A stretch of DNA of 64,000 nucleotides from Gammaproteobacteria bacterium (GTDB taxonomy: Bacteria; Pseudomonadota; Gammaproteobacteria; SZUA-140), in assembly GCA_015491865.1 (NCBI GenBank), contig WFVD01000015.1, positions 124,001-188,000 of the forward strand. Direction: 5' to 3'. A program made the translations under genes and the position numbers. Position 1 is the stretch's first letter. Every line of letters starts with the position of its first letter. Below are positions 152 through 18,601 of this stretch, in pieces. The notes beneath the pieces were generated by a model that made no database searches, was not told the DNA's origin, and saw nothing but the letters and a program-made list of their open reading frames with translations.

Positions 152-2437
152 TTACAGTGTGCTGTATTTCTTACGCAGGCGTTGACGCACAATCTCTGCG
201 ATGGTGTTAAAGAAAAAGGTAAACATAAAAAGCACCAGGGCAGCGAGAAAGAGTATTCGATAATGGGTGCTATCGACCTCCGCCTCTGGCATCTCGACCG
301 AGATGTTGGCCGACAATGTACGCATCCCCTCAAAGATACTGAAATCCATCACAGCGGTGTTTCCCGTCGCCATCAATACAATCATGGTTTCACCCACCGC
401 ACGCCCCATGCCTATCATCAATGCAGAGAAGATGCCGGGACTTGCAGTCAGTAACACAACACGCACCATCGTCTGCCACGGGGTGGCACCGAGCGCAAGT
501 GAACCTTGCGATAGATGGCGTGGTACGCCATAGATTGCATCTTCCGCGATTGAAAAAATGGTTGGAATAACGGCAAAGCCCATCGCAAGTCCAACAATGA
601 TTGAGTTTCGCTGATCAAAGCCAATTCCCAGTTCATCAGACATCCAGTGGCGCATATTGCCATCGAAGAGGAGTGATTCAAGGACTGGGCTTAGCGCAAG
701 GCTACCCCATCCCACAATGATCACTACTGGGATCAGTAACAGTGCCTCCCACCCTTCCGGAATGGCGTGGCGCAGGCTACGAGGTAGCTGAGACCACCCC
801 CAGGCGCATAACAGGATGCCTATTGGCATGAGCACCAGTAGACTAAAGGTTCCCGGCAGATGTGTTTCAATCAGGGGTGCTAGCCACAGCCCGGCAAGAA
901 AACCGAGAATAACGGTCGGCAAAGCCTCCATAATTTCGATGCTCGGCTTAACCACGTTACGCATCCTGGGCGCCATAAAGTAAGCGGTGAACAGTGCCCC
1001 AAGGATGGCTAGTGGTGCAGCGAGTAACATCGCATAAAAGGCTGCTTTTAAGGTGCCAAATGAGAGCGGAACCAGGCTGAGCTTTGGCTCAAAGTCATTG
1101 GATGCAGATGAAGACTGCCAGATATAATCCGGTTCCGGGTAGCTTTCGTACCACACCTTGCCCCATATTGAGTTCCACGAAACCTCAGGGTGATCGTTGT
1201 GAATATGCCACACCTGCAGCACACCGCTGGACTCTTCAGCTATCATCCAGTTGGCTCGTGGCGCCACCACAAGGTGTTTGACCGGTTGTGATGAGAGCTT
1301 ACTCAGCGCGAGGTTCCGCGCCGCAGTTGAGTGGTAGATGCCGACGTTGCCCTGACTATCTGCGACCAGAAACCCTTTGCGATCATATTCTGCCGCAATG
1401 GCAGTGATTGGATTATTGCGGGCCTGTTGCTGGTCAAAACCTCGAATGCGTGTCATCACCTCCTGGTTTCGTTCATTACGAACAGGAAACCACTGGCTCA
1501 GGTAGCCATCATCGTATCCGATGATCAATGAGATGGTGCCGGTCAGAAACTCGACTGCACTGACATTACGCCCATTCTCGCTGATGTTAATCTGGTAGCG
1601 GCGCTGGGGCTCCTCTGCATCACTGATATCAAAATAAGTTAACCTGTTATTTCGCTCTACCACGTAGAGATTTTGCTGATCCTGATCCATCAGGAGTTTT
1701 AAGACCTCGCTGTCGGGTGTGGCCAGTTCACGATTAAACTGTTCCAGCACGGGTTCATCATCGAACATCGACTCTTCCGCAATAAATGCGCTAAACAGTA
1801 ACCGCCCATCTTCTGTCACAGCGGCGACAGCAGTACTCTCTTCACTGCTTTGAAAGGTGATCTGGGTTAGCGCAGCGGCATAAGGGTCGATTTCAAGCGG
1901 GGCTTTCCCCAAAGGGTATTTAATCTGCGGGACAATCCTGCGCCTGTCATTGGGGTAGGTCACACGGTAGGTGTGTCGTAATAACAGCATCTGGCCACTG
2001 GAAAGCCCCATTGCCACGATTCCCTGATGCATCTGCCCTTTGGCAAAGGAGGTGATGGTAACACCGTCGGGTATTGGCAGGGGCTCACTTTTTATGACCT
2101 CGCCGCTAGCCAGGTCAAAAAAGAGCGCTTTGCCTGACCAGGTAAAACGCACCCCGATCTCCGCCTGCTCTTCCATTGCCAGGTAGAGCGTCTGTTCGTC
2201 TGCGCCACCAGGGGCGGGGTAGGTCACACGCTTTTCAACCTCGGCAGACTGAAATAGCGGCAAAACCACAAACAGCAGATAAAAGAAAATAAGGACAATG
2301 GCAATGATAACGCCAACCCCGCCGACACCCACCGCATAGCGAGTCACGCTATCTTTTACCTTGCGAAGCCGACGATGTTTAGCGGACGCTTCGCTGGCAA
2401 AAAGAGCTGCCGCCTGTTTTTCACCTGAACTATTCAT
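152..2437 (-). CDS. pstC: Phosphate ABC transporter permease PstC, long form
   Basis: Inner-membrane permease of the high-affinity phosphate importer PstSCAB. The protein has 761 residues, against about 300-320 for enteric PstC. A basic N-terminus (RRLRKVKDS) leads into one helix at about 36-62. A large domain at about 63-455 follows, with WD/propeller-like strands and presumably periplasmic. The permease core at about 456-750 carries the EAA-type loop LSQGSLALGATPWQTMVRV (about 643-661) and GRAVGETM. Long PstC forms with such an insert are known in pseudomonads and relatives. A Pho box lies just upstream, so PhoB control under phosphate limitation is likely. The predicted -10 is so close to the ATG at 2437 that the mRNA may be almost leaderless. 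No pstS is adjacent. Confidence 0.93.
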   Translation of the reverse strand: MNSSGEKQAAALFASEASAKHRRLRKVKDSVTRYAVGVGGVGVIIAIVLIFFYLLFVVLPLFQSAEVEKRVTYPAPGGADEQTLYLAMEEQAEIGVRFTWSGKALFFDLASGEVIKSEPLPIPDGVTITSFAKGQMHQGIVAMGLSSGQMLLLRHTYRVTYPNDRRRIVPQIKYPLGKAPLEIDPYAAALTQITFQSSEESTAVAAVTEDGRLLFSAFIAEESMFDDEPVLEQFNRELATPDSEVLKLLMDQDQQNLYVVERNNRLTYFDISDAEEPQRRYQINISENGRNVSAVEFLTGTISLIIGYDDGYLSQWFPVRNERNQEVMTRIRGFDQQQARNNPITAIAAEYDRKGFLVADSQGNVGIYHSTAARNLALSKLSSQPVKHLVVAPRANWMIAEESSGVLQVWHIHNDHPEVSWNSIWGKVWYESYPEPDYIWQSSSASNDFEPKLSLVPLSFGTLKAAFYAMLLAAPLAILGALFTAYFMAPRMRNVVKPSIEIMEALPTVILGFLAGLWLAPLIETHLPGTFSLLVLMPIGILLCAWGWSQLPRSLRHAIPEGWEALLLIPVVIIVGWGSLALSPVLESLLFDGNMRHWMSDELGIGFDQRNSIIVGLAMGFAVIPTIFSIAEDAIYGVPRHLSQGSLALGATPWQTMVRVVLLTASPGIFSALMIGMGRAVGETMIVLMATGNTAVMDFSIFEGMRTLSANISVEMPEAEVDSTHYRILFLAALVLFMFTFFFNTIAEIVRQRLRKKYSTL

Positions 2438-2477: not shown

Positions 2478-2542
2478 CGCTGCCATATTTACCATTTCCG
2501 TTTGAAGGCAGTGAGATCTTTGCTCAATCAGGTGGCTATATA

Positions 2543-2570
2543 AAAGGAGGCGACCAAAGCCGCCTCCTTT
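2543..2570 (-). terminator. Intrinsic terminator of small RNA 1
   Basis: A perfect 10-bp stem, AAAGGAGGCG / CGCCTCCTTT, with an 8-nt loop. In the minus direction it is followed by T then ATATA, giving a short T-rich tail. The GGAGG in the stem adds one more potential CsrA-type motif. In the plus direction the tail is C-rich, so this is a leftward terminator. Confidence 0.75.
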
Positions 2571-2674
2571 GTCCCCCGTCACCTCCGTGTCATCGCGTCG
2601 TCCATGCAGGCATCCATGCCACCACCATCCGTGGTGATTCTCCTTTTCAGCCGTAGCCACGGCTGTGGGAACAG
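2543..2674 (-). ncRNA. CsrB/RsmZ-like CsrA-titrating small RNA, copy 1
   Basis: About 130 nt, minus strand. The RNA shows repeated GGA in short hairpin loops, the hallmark of CsrA/RsmA-binding RNAs. CACCA-CGGA-TGGTG is at 2636-2623, GGCA-TGGA-TGCC at 2620-2609 and CAC-GGAG-GTG at 2589-2580. Unpaired GGAs lie at 2643-2641 and 2603-2601. A 7-bp hairpin at the 5' side (CAGCCGT/ACGGCTG, about 2665-2648) and a 10-bp terminator at the 3' end frame the RNA. Size and layout resemble RsmY/RsmZ. The only reading frame across it (62 codons, rich in Trp, His and Gly) is best explained as a by-product of the repeats. The start is estimated from the upstream promoter-like sequence. Confidence 0.7.
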
Positions 2675-2680
2675 TGGCAA

Positions 2681-2708
2681 CCTATATGCATTTTAGCGCC
2701 AGCAACAA
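2681..2708 (-). promoter_or_regulatory. Putative sigma-70 promoter of small RNA 1
   Basis: On the minus strand TTGTTG (2708-2703) is separated by 16 bp from TATAGG (2686-2681), giving a start near 2674. I looked in the AT-rich stretch upstream (about 2710-2800) for the GacA-type palindrome TGTAAG-N6-CTTACA common before such RNAs in pseudomonads and did not find a clear match. The control route is therefore unknown. Confidence 0.45.
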
Positions 2709-2908
2709 GTGCCTGTTTTTACATATATCAATATGATAGCATTCAATTTTTAACTTAAATATAAAGTGTGAATTTTGATATCTGCATTATTATCAGCTAC
2801 TTGATAAAACCGGATGATAGTTAACCAAAGTTTCTACTTCACTGTAATGCGACCTTCTCCTATTGAAAGATCAAAGTATTCCTACAGGGATTTCAGAGCA
2901 GAAAAAGA

Positions 2909-2939
2909 AAAGGCGATTCAGATCAACTGAACCGCCTTT
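2909..2939 (-). terminator. Intrinsic terminator of small RNA 2
   Basis: Stem AAAGGCG / CGCCTTT, then one mismatch and an inner stem TTCAG / CTGAA around a 5-nt loop. In the minus direction it is followed by a T-rich run (TTTCTTTTTCTG). The plus-direction tail is also T-rich (CCTTTTCT), so it may work both ways. Confidence 0.82.
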
Positions 2940-3093
2940 CCTTTTCTAGTGACATCAGCCACTTACATCCTTATGTCACACCACTCCATGGTGTATGCGC
3001 TCCTGCGCCTGTCATATCATCCTGACTGCACTCCTTGCAGAAGATTCATCCCTGCGCTCATCCTGAGTTATTATTGACAGACATCCTTATCTC
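2909..3093 (-). ncRNA. CsrB/RsmZ-like CsrA-titrating small RNA, copy 2
   Basis: About 185 nt, minus strand, 235 bp upstream of copy 1 in the same orientation. It has at least eight GGA motifs, most of them in hairpin loops: CTCA-GGA-TGAG (3067-3057), CTGCA-AGGAG-TGCAG (3040-3026), GCGC-AGGA-GCGC (3008-2997), ACACCA-TGGAG-TGGTGT (2994-2978) and ACAT-AAGG-ATGT (2976-2965). Further GGAs lie at 3086-3084, 3051-3049 and 3022-3020. It ends in a strong intrinsic terminator. This serial arrangement of GGA loops is the defining architecture of CsrB/CsrC/RsmY/RsmZ. By that precedent it sequesters CsrA and relieves CsrA repression of mRNAs. The 5' end is estimated from a TATAGT box. Primary sequence differs from copy 1. 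Confidence 0.78.
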
Positions 3094-3099
3094 TCCCCC

Positions 3100-3128
3100 A
3101 CTATATCGTCTTGTTTTTAAAGAAGATA
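3100..3128 (-). promoter_or_regulatory. Putative promoter of small RNA 2
   Basis: TATAGT (3105-3100, minus strand) is a good -10 and places the start near 3093, just after a GGGGG run. The -35 candidate 17 bp upstream (TATCTT) is poor, which would fit an activator-dependent promoter. Upstream to 3340 the DNA is AT-rich with no gene I can support. A short hairpin CCGCAG/CTGCGG sits at 3313-3330 before the next gene. Confidence 0.35.
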
Positions 3129-3364
3129 AACGATTACTGCGTCATATTGAACCAATTTTAATGCGATATAGACATAGTATAAGTAAAGGTTATTATGGTA
3201 TTCATACTAGAAAACAACAGGTTGCTAATTCTGCTCCGCTGGGCGTAAAGCCTCAGCCTCAGGTTGAAGTATTGATTCATGACACCCTTTTCAGAAAAAC
3301 CCTACAAAATAGCCGCAGTGACATCTGCGGGTTGACTTAAAATGCGACTCAAAACGACCTAAGC

Positions 3365-6300
3365 ATGGATAGAACAGCGCAAGCAAGCGATCCACAACGC
3401 AGCATTACCGTAACCGCCTCTGCCGGTGCGGGTAAAACCTACCTGCTGGTTACGCGCCTGTTGCGGCTACTGCTCTCTGATACACCACCGGAGACAATTC
3501 TGGCCATCACCTTTACCCGCAAGGCTGCCACTGAGATGCAGCACCGTATTACTGAGCGATTGCACCAGCTTTTAACCCTGACGCCCGAAGCATTAAATGG
3601 TCTCCTTAAGGCTATCGGTATCACCCCCGACGAGACTATGCGCAATAAAGCTCAGACGCTCTATGAACAGTTACTGCGCTGCGAGCAGCCGTTACGCATC
3701 ACCACTTTTCACGCCTTTTGCCAGGAGATACTGCGCCGCTTCCCACTCGAAGCAGATGTCCCACCGGGATTTGAGATCCTGGAGAGCAGCGGGCTACTTG
3801 AAAAGCGGGCGCTGGATGCCCTTTTCAGTGATGCCACTCAGCAACCCGACGGTGAACTGGCAGAGATGTTGGCGACCTTGATGGCGCATTGCGGTGGCAT
3901 CAGCAGCACTGAAACGGCACTTAAACAGTTTATTCAGCACCGAAGCGACTGGTGGGCATTTACACTCGATCAGCCGCGCCCGCTTGCTTATGCCAGCGAA
4001 ACCCTTGCCAGGCAGTTGAAAATCAGCGCGGAACGCTATGCAACGGATGCCGACTTTCTAACCCCAGCACTGCTGCTGCAGTGCGAGGAATTTTCAGCGC
4101 TGCTCAGCAAGCATAGCAACAAGGGGAATGATGCCCACGCTGCCCTGCTCAATCAGGCTGGGGAGGATTCACTACCACCGCAACAACGTATTGCTGCTCT
4201 CAGCACCGTCTTTCTAACCGAGAAAGGTGAACCGAGAAAGCGGAAAGCGAGTGCCGCCCAGAGCAAGTCGATAGGCGTTGATGGGCAGGCGCGTCTCCTT
4301 GAGCTGCACCGCACCATCTGCGAAGCGTTAATTGAGCGACAGGATCAACTCAATCGCCACCAGCTCTATCGTGGTTCGGTCGCCTGGTATCACGTTGGCG
4401 TACGGTTACTTCACCATTATCAGACCATGAAAGAGGAACAGCGCCTGCTTGATTTTGCTGACCTTGAATGGCGTGCCTACCAACTGCTCAATCACCACAA
4501 TAATGCTCACTGGGTTCAATATAAACTCGACCAGCGCATCAACCACCTTCTGGTCGATGAGTTTCAGGACACCAACCCCACCCAGTGGCGGTTGCTACTG
4601 CCGCTACTTCAGGAGCTTGCGAGCGGCGAGGCTGAACGTAACCGAAGTGTTTTTCTAGTCGGAGATAGCAAACAGTCTATCTACCGATTCCGTCGAGCAG
4701 ACCCCCGCTTGTTTGCGACCGCTCAACAGTGGTTAGAGCAGCGGCTAAACGCGGTGACATGCCCTCTCGATATCTCATGGCGCTCGGCACCGGCAATCAT
4801 AGACTTTGTTAATCTTCTATTTGATCGCACACCATTAGGCGAGCGCCTCTCAAACTTTCAGCCTCATGACACTCATCAACACTCTCTCTGGGGTAAAGTG
4901 GAGATGCTGCCGCTGCTTGACCCAGATAGTGGTACGAAAGCCCCCCCCTCGGCAACGTTCCGAAACCCTTTAGAACAGCCGCGCATCGGGAGTGGCGACG
5001 CCTGGCAGCACCATTATGCTGAAGGCAATCTTATCGCGATGCACATTAACACGATGCTCAATGATGGCACTGCCATCAGGGAGCACGACGAACCGCGCAC
5101 CTTACAATTGAACGACATCATTATATTACTGCGCAGTCGCACCCACCTTTCCGCCTATGAAGCCGCACTGCGCGAACATAACATCGCCTATATTAGTAAC
5201 ACAAAGAGCACCGTTCTAGACACACTGGAAGCGCAGGATATGGTAGCGCTGCTGAATACACTGATCTCACCACATAATAATCTCGCACTCGCGCAACTGC
5301 TGCGCTCGCCACTATTCAATTGCGATGAAAGTGGACTGATCGCTTTGGCGTCATTAACCACACAACAGACGTTGCGCCACCATACTCGCTCCTGGTTTAC
5401 ATCGCTCGGCCTGATTCAGGAGCAGCTCACCCAGGGTGATCCACTTGCACGTGCATATCGGCTCATTAAGCAGTGGCAGCAGTATGCTGGTGAACTGCCG
5501 GTACACGATCTACTCGACCGTATCTATCATGAGGGTGATCTACAGCAGCGCTATTTCGCTGCGTTTCCTGCACATTTACACCCAAGGGTCGAGAGCAATC
5601 TCACACGTTTTATTGAACTGGCACTTGAACTTGACAGTGGCCGCTACCCCAGCCTGCCACACTTTATTAATCGTTTAAAAAGACTGAAAGAATATGCACC
5701 CGATTGCATTGATGAACCGGCTTCGATTAATCATGCGGGTGCAGTCCGTATCATGACCATTCACGCCGCCAAAGGGCTGGAGGCGCCGGTGGTGTTTATG
5801 GCAGATGCAGCGCGCGTGACAAAAAGCAAACGGGCACACCATGCGATTGTTAACTGGCCATCGGAACAGGCTAGCCCCAGCCACTTTTTTCTATGTGGCA
5901 CAAAGAGGTCGATTGACCGCGACACAATGAAATTGTTAGAGGCGGATGATCTGGAAGAGGCGCGTGAAGATGCTAACCTGCTCTATGTTGCCCTCACACG
6001 CGCCCGACAGTATCTGATTATCACAGGTTGTATCCCTAAAAAAGGTAAAGAACGCGGCTGGTATGGTGCGATGGCAGAGCAGGTGATGGAGAGTAATGCA
6101 ATTCAGAACAATGCTGGTTTTGAGATGAGCAATGGGACCATTTTAAAAATTGAAGCTGCAGAGCAGCCGAAATCGATCGAAAATAAAGCAGTGGCCGCTG
6201 TTTTCCCTGCGACTTCGACTGCCACCGCGCTCACCATTCAATCACTGCCCATTGAAAACCACACCATTCAGGCCAGCAAGGTTTTTCAGGAGGCGAGCCA

Positions 6301-6823
6301 TCGCCATGGTTTGTCAACACCCCCCAGCGACGATGAGGAGGATGAACAGAGCATTCGCGGTGAGACGATCCATCGTATCCTTGAGCTGATGACCCACCAC
6401 CCAGCACCAGGACGGGCTGTGGTCACGCAGCAGATTATGGAGGAGCAAGGGGTCAATGTTGCGGCTGACACACTGCTCAAATGGGTTGATGAGGCTGGCT
6501 CGCTGGTAGAGAACCCTGAACTTAGCTGGCTATTTGATCCTGCTCAATTTGATGCAGCACATAATGAAATGGCCATCTATTTCTCTGATGATCGAGGTAA
6601 CTTTGCGGGCATCATTGACCGGCTGGTTATCAAAGATGACGCAATTGTAATTGTCGATTACAAAACACATCGCAATATTACCCCACGCACTGTAGCTGCA
6701 TATGGAGAGCGCTACCGAGAGCAGATGGCGATCTACCAATCTGGTATCGAAAAAATCTGGCCAGATAAACGTGTCAAGAAGAGCCTGTTATTTACACATA
6801 GCGCCCTCTGTTACACGCTCTAA
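3365..6823 (+). CDS. addA: AddA-like UvrD-family helicase with C-terminal nuclease
   Basis: A 1152-residue superfamily 1A DNA helicase. By motif it resembles the AddA subunit of AddAB-type double-strand-break resection enzymes. Visible motifs in order: Walker A ASAGAGKT near residue 20, motif Ia TFTRKAA, motif II VDEFQDT, motif III VGDSKQSIYRFR, motif V TIHAAKGLEAPVVF and motif VI YVALTRARQYL. The C-terminal PD-(D/E)XK nuclease signature is GIIDRL...IVDYKTH near the end. Length is normal for AddA. AddB is usually encoded directly upstream, but here the upstream DNA is the small-RNA region and no addB is in the window. The ATG at 3365 has only a weak ribosome-binding site. A RecB role is less likely because the nuclease spacing and N-terminus are AddA-like. 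Confidence 0.85.
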   Translation: MDRTAQASDPQRSITVTASAGAGKTYLLVTRLLRLLLSDTPPETILAITFTRKAATEMQHRITERLHQLLTLTPEALNGLLKAIGITPDETMRNKAQTLYEQLLRCEQPLRITTFHAFCQEILRRFPLEADVPPGFEILESSGLLEKRALDALFSDATQQPDGELAEMLATLMAHCGGISSTETALKQFIQHRSDWWAFTLDQPRPLAYASETLARQLKISAERYATDADFLTPALLLQCEEFSALLSKHSNKGNDAHAALLNQAGEDSLPPQQRIAALSTVFLTEKGEPRKRKASAAQSKSIGVDGQARLLELHRTICEALIERQDQLNRHQLYRGSVAWYHVGVRLLHHYQTMKEEQRLLDFADLEWRAYQLLNHHNNAHWVQYKLDQRINHLLVDEFQDTNPTQWRLLLPLLQELASGEAERNRSVFLVGDSKQSIYRFRRADPRLFATAQQWLEQRLNAVTCPLDISWRSAPAIIDFVNLLFDRTPLGERLSNFQPHDTHQHSLWGKVEMLPLLDPDSGTKAPPSATFRNPLEQPRIGSGDAWQHHYAEGNLIAMHINTMLNDGTAIREHDEPRTLQLNDIIILLRSRTHLSAYEAALREHNIAYISNTKSTVLDTLEAQDMVALLNTLISPHNNLALAQLLRSPLFNCDESGLIALASLTTQQTLRHHTRSWFTSLGLIQEQLTQGDPLARAYRLIKQWQQYAGELPVHDLLDRIYHEGDLQQRYFAAFPAHLHPRVESNLTRFIELALELDSGRYPSLPHFINRLKRLKEYAPDCIDEPASINHAGAVRIMTIHAAKGLEAPVVFMADAARVTKSKRAHHAIVNWPSEQASPSHFFLCGTKRSIDRDTMKLLEADDLEEAREDANLLYVALTRARQYLIITGCIPKKGKERGWYGAMAEQVMESNAIQNNAGFEMSNGTILKIEAAEQPKSIENKAVAAVFPATSTATALTIQSLPIENHTIQASKVFQEASHRHGLSTPPSDDEEDEQSIRGETIHRILELMTHHPAPGRAVVTQQIMEEQGVNVAADTLLKWVDEAGSLVENPELSWLFDPAQFDAAHNEMAIYFSDDRGNFAGIIDRLVIKDDAIVIVDYKTHRNITPRTVAAYGERYREQMAIYQSGIEKIWPDKRVKKSLLFTHSALCYTL

Positions 6824-17521: not shown

Positions 17522-18601
17522 TTAAATCTCTTTCACGCAGCGAAAGCCAACATCCTCAGAGCGCAGTTCAGCTGCCGCAAACTGGCGCGCCGCACCACGA
17601 AAAAACATACTTAAGGCGTAGTGGCCAACGCCGCCGCCGCCGCCACGAATCACCTTGTTCTTTTTACCGAAGAGATCGCTCTGATAGTCAGACCCTTCAT
17701 AGGGCTGGTACCAGTCTGCTACCCACTCCCAAACATTTCCAGCCATATCATAAGCACCGACGGGCGATATGTTTCCGGGGTATGATCCGACCGGCGCGAT
17801 CCCCTCATCCCAGTCGGAATCATCGCCTGTATTAGTAATCTTCACATCCCACTGGTTACCCCACGGGTATTCACGTCCATCCGTGCCGCGAGCAGCTCGC
17901 TCCCACTCCGCTTCCCGTGGCAGGCGCTTGCCGCGCCATTGACAATAGATGCTGGCCTCCTGCCAGGTGACATCGGTCGCGGGTAACGGGTCCATCTTCT
18001 TCTGCACTGCCACCATCGCTGCCATTAGCGCCTCTCGATCCATCTCGCGGGTATCCATATCGAGCTTAAAATCATTGGCCGCGATGTCACGCAGGCGTTC
18101 AAGTCTCATTCGCCCGGCCTCCTCCATTGTCAACCCATAGCCATTACTGCCCCATAGAAAAGGCAACAGGCGATCTGTGGCAAGGATAAACTCTTTGTAT
18201 TCCGCTTTGCTCGTTTCATAGGTGTCGATCATAAACGCCCCCAGTTGATGTTTATGTTCGGGGTGTTCATTAACAAAGAGTGGCGTTGAAAAACCGTAAC
18301 GCTCCTGTAGCCCCTCATCATCGACCTTGTTGCTTCCCATGATGAATTCGCCCGCAGGTACTGTCACCATTGGAATCGAAGCCGTTAGCGGTGACTCCCT
18401 GCCAAGCTGTAGCTCCGTTTCACTCAGCATATCCTGTGGTGATTTTTTCGTAGTGAGCGGCTTATTAGTGATTTCAGAGGCGGCCATCATCGGAGATTTA
18501 TTCGGTGCAACAGTAGCGGCAGAATCCAGTCCTGAATTTTTATCACACGATAGCAACCCAAGGCTTACCAATATCAATACCCCGCACTTAGTGCAATTCA
18601 T
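17522..18601 (-). CDS. SUMF1/FGE-fold lipoprotein, probably non-catalytic
   Basis: 359 residues. An N-terminal lipoprotein signal ends in LGLLSC (Cys19), so the protein is predicted to be membrane-anchored in the envelope. A SUMF1/formylglycine-generating-enzyme domain runs from about residue 80 (VPAGEFIMGSN, TWQEASIYCQWRGKRLP, AEWERAARGTDGREYPWG, YDMAGNVWEWVADW, VGFRCVKEI). Around the position of the catalytic cysteine pair it reads RGGGGGVGHYALSMFF, with no cysteine, so oxidase activity is unlikely. It begins on the last base of the upstream cytochrome-FGE gene's stop codon, so the two are translationally coupled. It is probably a structural or ligand-binding partner; the exact role is unknown. 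Confidence 0.82.
   Translation of the reverse strand: MNCTKCGVLILVSLGLLSCDKNSGLDSAATVAPNKSPMMAASEITNKPLTTKKSPQDMLSETELQLGRESPLTASIPMVTVPAGEFIMGSNKVDDEGLQERYGFSTPLFVNEHPEHKHQLGAFMIDTYETSKAEYKEFILATDRLLPFLWGSNGYGLTMEEAGRMRLERLRDIAANDFKLDMDTREMDREALMAAMVAVQKKMDPLPATDVTWQEASIYCQWRGKRLPREAEWERAARGTDGREYPWGNQWDVKITNTGDDSDWDEGIAPVGSYPGNISPVGAYDMAGNVWEWVADWYQPYEGSDYQSDLFGKKNKVIRGGGGGVGHYALSMFFRGAARQFAAAELRSEDVGFRCVKEI

Follow-up and report, generated by a model that had tools for sequence, protein, structure and literature searches.

Csr sponge RNAs are not conserved in sequence, and finding them beyond the well-studied genera is difficult. In E. coli, CsrB carries 22 GGA motifs, and new Csr RNAs are still being found by GGA counting (PMC11882849). 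Tandem Csr/Rsm RNAs, each with its own box, are known from Shewanella oneidensis (PMC3171408), and a csrB duplication is reported for Vibrio tasmaniensis (PMC6262261). Genes of sRNAs under GacA control are known to have a palindromic box upstream (PMC7911923, PMC3171408); its sequence is TATAGCGAAACGCTTACA in Pseudomonas brassicacearum (PMC7911923), and in Shewanella, it is TGTAAGN6CTTACA (PMC3171408). A search of open-access papers found none on Csr RNAs of the lineage considered here.

Organization of the locus

The window, that is, the whole stretch of 64,000 nucleotides analysed here, comes from an uncultured gammaproteobacterial genus. Between addA and pstC lie about 900 non-coding bases of the minus strand. 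Here, the sequence-only reading had proposed one RNA with GGA motifs (RNA1). A second, smaller GGA-rich RNA (RNA2), in tandem downstream of it across about 230 bp of non-coding DNA, was overlooked, as were the upstream boxes that the two share. The features of the locus are as follows:

152-2437, minus strand: pstC (TIGR02138)
2541-2675, minus strand: RNA2, a predicted CsrA-sponge RNA of about 135 nt with 7 GGA, recognized by its hairpins, fold, covariation and covariance model R2
2542-2570, minus strand: intrinsic terminator of RNA2, a 12-pair stem with compensatory changes and a T run
2903-3093, minus strand: RNA1, a predicted CsrA-sponge small RNA of about 190 nt with 9 GGA past the probable start, recognized by fold, conservation, covariation and the Rfam CsrB match
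2904-2945, minus strand: intrinsic terminator of RNA1, a 19-pair stem with compensatory changes, then a T run
3365-6823, plus strand: addA (best NCBIfam family AddA, with a score under its cut-off)

A Pho-box-like sequence, CTGTAACATAACTGTCAT, is present at 2460-2477 of the minus strand, between RNA2 and pstC, and is kept before pstC in relatives. Given this position, the pst operon is probably under its own PhoB control, independently of RNA1 and RNA2.

GGA motifs and secondary structure

RNA1 probably starts near 3093-3095. At least eight GGA motifs had been claimed for the interval 2909-3093; nine are counted on its minus strand, and a tenth (3096-3094) falls at or just ahead of the likely start. 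That these motifs lie mostly in hairpin loops is borne out by sampled structures, in which the probability of being in a loop is 0.55 for GGA and 0.13 for other triplets. In the window sequence, none of 5000 permutations reaches this enrichment (p<0.0002); in two relatives (L008 and L105), it is not significant. All four hairpins quoted earlier are found on the minus strand, namely ACACCATGGAGTGGTGT (2978-2994), CTGCAAGGAGTGCAG (3026-3040), GCGCAGGAGCGC (2997-3008) and CTCAGGATGAG (3057-3067). For the one at 3026-3040, the sequence is present and part of it belongs to the seven-genome consensus fold, but the hairpin is absent from the window’s own minimum-energy fold. The strong intrinsic terminator claimed for the end of RNA1 is also there, with its stem at 2945-2904 and the T run. 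The low fold energy of RNA1 (z-score -5.2) is mostly due to this terminator, as the body alone gives -1.8.

RNA2 has three of its seven GGA motifs in the small hairpins CACCACGGATGGTGG, GGCATGGATGCC and CACGGAGGTG. Its GGA-in-loop enrichment reaches p=0.02 in the window and is not significant in three relatives (L034, L006 and L032).

Segments of 190 nt with at least 10 GGA make up about 0.09% of all those on both strands, the element’s own included. The densest in the window holds 12 GGA and lies within the open reading frame at 17522-18601 of the minus strand; by eye, this frame looks like a formylglycine-generating-enzyme-type lipoprotein and is, hence, coding. Another region attains 9 per 190 nt. 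The GGA count alone is, therefore, no proof of a sponge.

Conservation and covariation in the genus

The genomes of the relatives were assembled from metagenomes and bear labels such as Chromatiales and Thiotrichaceae. By DNA search and by full-length, high-scoring matches to covariance model R1, RNA1 is present in 7 of the 10 genomes of the genus, its own included, with 56-99% identity across the seven. High-scoring matches to model R2 place RNA2 in six of the ten, all of them RNA1 carriers. In the loci that were read, both RNAs occupy the gap between the start of addA and pstC or, where pstC is not adjacent, that between addA and whichever gene comes next. One genome (G009, locus L035) has RNA1 and lacks RNA2, and at another pst locus (L033), where a lysS-like gene precedes pstC, neither is present. 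Some of these absences may be assembly gaps.

The earlier proposal had been made dependent on conservation of the GGA loops in close relatives, and the GGA positions are indeed conserved. Over the seven genomes, no other triplet class of RNA1 is kept as well as its GGA columns (0.81 against 0.63 for the others, p=0.006). RNA2 shows the same tendency, at a p of 0.08 that is only suggestive; with this value and a fold z-score of -2.6, RNA2 on its own is a weaker case than RNA1. Changes on both sides of the consensus stems were observed at 11 of 46 pairs in RNA1 and 6 of 32 in RNA2, and none of 500 shuffles reaches the covariation score of the two. Coming from only six or seven related sequences, this covariation is supportive of RNA stems and not conclusive. 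The alignments of relatives contain no conserved reading frame in either RNA. A protein-coding origin is thereby rejected.

At L105 (3814-4081), the RNA1 homolog is enlarged to about 268 nt with 15 GGA, owing to repeated AACAAGGATGTNGGTTTTAAAAGGATG-like units. Growth by repeats is of the kind expected of a multi-site sponge, and this may be a case of sponge expansion.

Family and homology searches

It had been anticipated that covariance searches might miss the element. At curated thresholds they do, since neither RNA has an Rfam match at the gathering score. Below it, the best and only convincing family for RNA1 is CsrB (RF00018), at 27.9 bits (E=1.1e-5) against a gathering score of 71 bits, and RNA1 is the best CsrB match in its entire genome. 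About half of this score comes from the terminator, without which 15.3 bits remain (E=0.02). In L003, the best Rfam match of RNA1 is CsrC. For RNA2, PrrB/RsmZ (RF00166) scores 15.5 bits in the window and 27.1 in L008, where 44 bits are required. As all scores stay under their curated thresholds and that of CsrB falls to 15.3 bits without the terminator, Rfam alone is thin evidence. Formal membership in CsrB or RsmZ is not claimed, as the curated score was failed; functional likeness to a Csr sponge is a separate matter and is well supported.

Outside the genus, weak matches to RF00166 and model R2 (L166, L184, L168, L169 and L170) proved, when read, to be ordinary intergenic terminators, and a full-length R1 match in G002 (L131) lies, by eye, within an apparent elongation factor G coding sequence. 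As the outside matches are terminators or coding sequence, no homolog is shown beyond the genus. In the more distant genomes searched, most GGA-rich peaks upstream of pstC look coding. One more distant gammaproteobacterium (L102, about 5450-5650) has 8 GGA in about 170 intergenic bases, upstream of pstC and downstream of a pstS-like gene; no clear terminator was seen at this cluster, which is a possible candidate for an independent Csr RNA next to pst.

Predicted promoters, upstream boxes and candidate protein partners

The -10-like hexamers of both RNAs were placed by eye and alignment. The upstream features, all on the minus strand, are as follows:

3289-3306, minus strand: UAS1, an activator-like box TGTAGGGTTTTTCTGAAA upstream of RNA1, with 8 of the 10 specified bases of TGTNAGN6CTNACA
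3100-3105, minus strand: -10-like hexamer TATAGT of RNA1, in a GACG(A/C)TA block conserved in 7 genomes, with no clear -35
2869-2886, minus strand: UAS2, a TGTAGGAATACTTTGATC box upstream of RNA2, with conserved run and spacing in 6 genomes
2681-2686, minus strand: -10-like hexamer TATAGG of RNA2, weakly conserved in the alignment, with an invariant CTTGTT about 20 nt upstream

The longest invariant run in the upstream alignment is ATTTTGTAGG for RNA1 (seven genomes) and TGTAGGA for RNA2 (six genomes). The distance from TGTAGG to the hexamer is 199-202 nt in 7 of 7 genomes for RNA1 and 199-200 nt in 6 of 6 for RNA2, that is, at 13 of 13 promoters, although the bases in between have diverged. 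TGTAGG occurs in the window at 0.07 per kb per strand, and the chance of finding it at the same four positions at RNA2 is roughly 3 in 10,000, a figure which is approximate because of the way the hexamers were placed.

The consensus of the GacA/UvrY site is TGTNAGN6CTNACA. Matches at 8 of its 10 bases are common by chance, with 18 in the window, and its second half is poorly conserved at RNA2. It is thus from position and conservation, and not from the match, that we infer a GacA site. Elsewhere in the same genome, two further sequences come close to the upstream box (L187 and L188), and no GGA-rich RNA follows either.

The genome encodes a single CsrA (G000:C20; PF02599, 91.4 bits) of 61 aa with Leu4 and Arg44, whose gene adjoins that of an aspartokinase. 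A UvrY/GacA ortholog is present (306 bits against an NCBIfam cut-off of 280). No BarA ortholog was found above the cut-off in this genome; hybrid kinases exist, the best of which scores 455 bits against 890.

Proposed role and alternative explanations

The proposal that RNA1 titrates CsrA draws support from the conserved GGA motifs, the covarying stems, CsrB as the best family, the csrA and uvrY/gacA genes and the conserved upstream box. The best explanation, to which we give a probability of about 0.87, is that RNA1 and RNA2 are tandem GacA-activated CsrA sponges, equivalent to csrB/rsmZ. They would be transcribed from separate promoters to separate terminators as non-coding RNAs. Several GGA motifs would be exposed on each, many of them in the loops of hairpins, and a single RNA could thus bind several CsrA dimers. 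About 200 nt ahead of each start, a response regulator, most probably the cell’s own GacA/UvrY, would bind the TGTAGG-type box and turn on both RNAs together, which would then draw CsrA away from its mRNA targets. The least certain step is the binding of GacA to the boxes, which we consider probable.

The same sponges may instead be switched on by another regulator reading the boxes, such as an activator that responds to phosphate or stress. The adjacent pst operon is probably Pho-regulated, TGTAGGNNTTTNCTGA matches the consensus only in part, and conservation of the second half is poor at RNA2, all of which would suit such a regulator. On the other hand, a UvrY/GacA ortholog scores above its cut-off in the genome, and the box follows the layout of known GacA-controlled sRNA genes (PMC7911923, PMC3171408), so that another activator is possible and the less likely choice. 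Incidental GGA enrichment in a base-pairing small RNA is conceivable, as CU-rich mRNA can pair with GGA-rich stretches and other regions, one of them coding, attain 9 and 12 GGA; the retention of GGA in loops of covarying hairpins, and its multiplication in L105, make this improbable. Slightly less credible still is that the two elements are leaders or attenuators of the pst operon instead of free sRNAs. They do lie directly upstream of pstC on its strand, but each ends in a strong terminator and has its own upstream box, and the Pho-box-like sequence intervenes between RNA2 and pstC.

With tandem CsrA sponges as the preferred reading, one may speculate further about a Csr module particular to the genus, made up of two dissimilar sponges, one CsrB-like and one RsmZ-like, that stand in tandem beside a phosphate-uptake operon with matching boxes at 200 bp and a GacA recognition shifted to TGTAGG from TGTAAG. 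This idea is tentative and, on balance, doubtful. For an uncultured genus of Gammaproteobacteria, the locus offers a clean and conserved case, with enough homologs for covariance models. Further RNAs of this kind can be sought by means of the upstream box at fixed spacing, and L105 illustrates how GGA units multiply inside one RNA.

Comparison with known Csr/Rsm systems

Like CsrB/RsmB (RF00018) and CsrC (RF00084), RNA1 is intergenic, has many loop GGA motifs and a terminator, and occurs in a genome with csrA and uvrY; the CsrB model, however, spans 356 positions, whereas RNA1 has about 190 nt and 9 GGA. RNA2 resembles RsmZ/PrrB (RF00166) in size and GGA number, and it is this family that RNA2 and its relatives match best, if weakly; RNA2 differs in its score below gathering and in its place beside pst. 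The csrB1 and csrB2 of Shewanella are likewise tandem Csr RNAs with a separate UvrY box predicted for each, but both are about 420 nt long with a transposase gene between them, while RNA1 and RNA2 are unequal in size and have non-coding DNA between them (PMC3171408). In P. brassicacearum, rsmX-1 and rsmX-2 are tandem sponges that both have their own upstream activating sequence for GacA, and they are duplicates of 75% identity (PMC7911923). RNA1 and RNA2, in contrast, are unlike in both length and layout; judged by these, there is no obvious recent common copy behind the two. As tandem Csr/Rsm RNAs, csrB duplication and finds by GGA counting are all known, the two RNAs add to a known class, and the proposed mechanism is an ordinary one. 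What appears to be new here is RNA2 in tandem with RNA1 and the TGTAGG boxes common to both.
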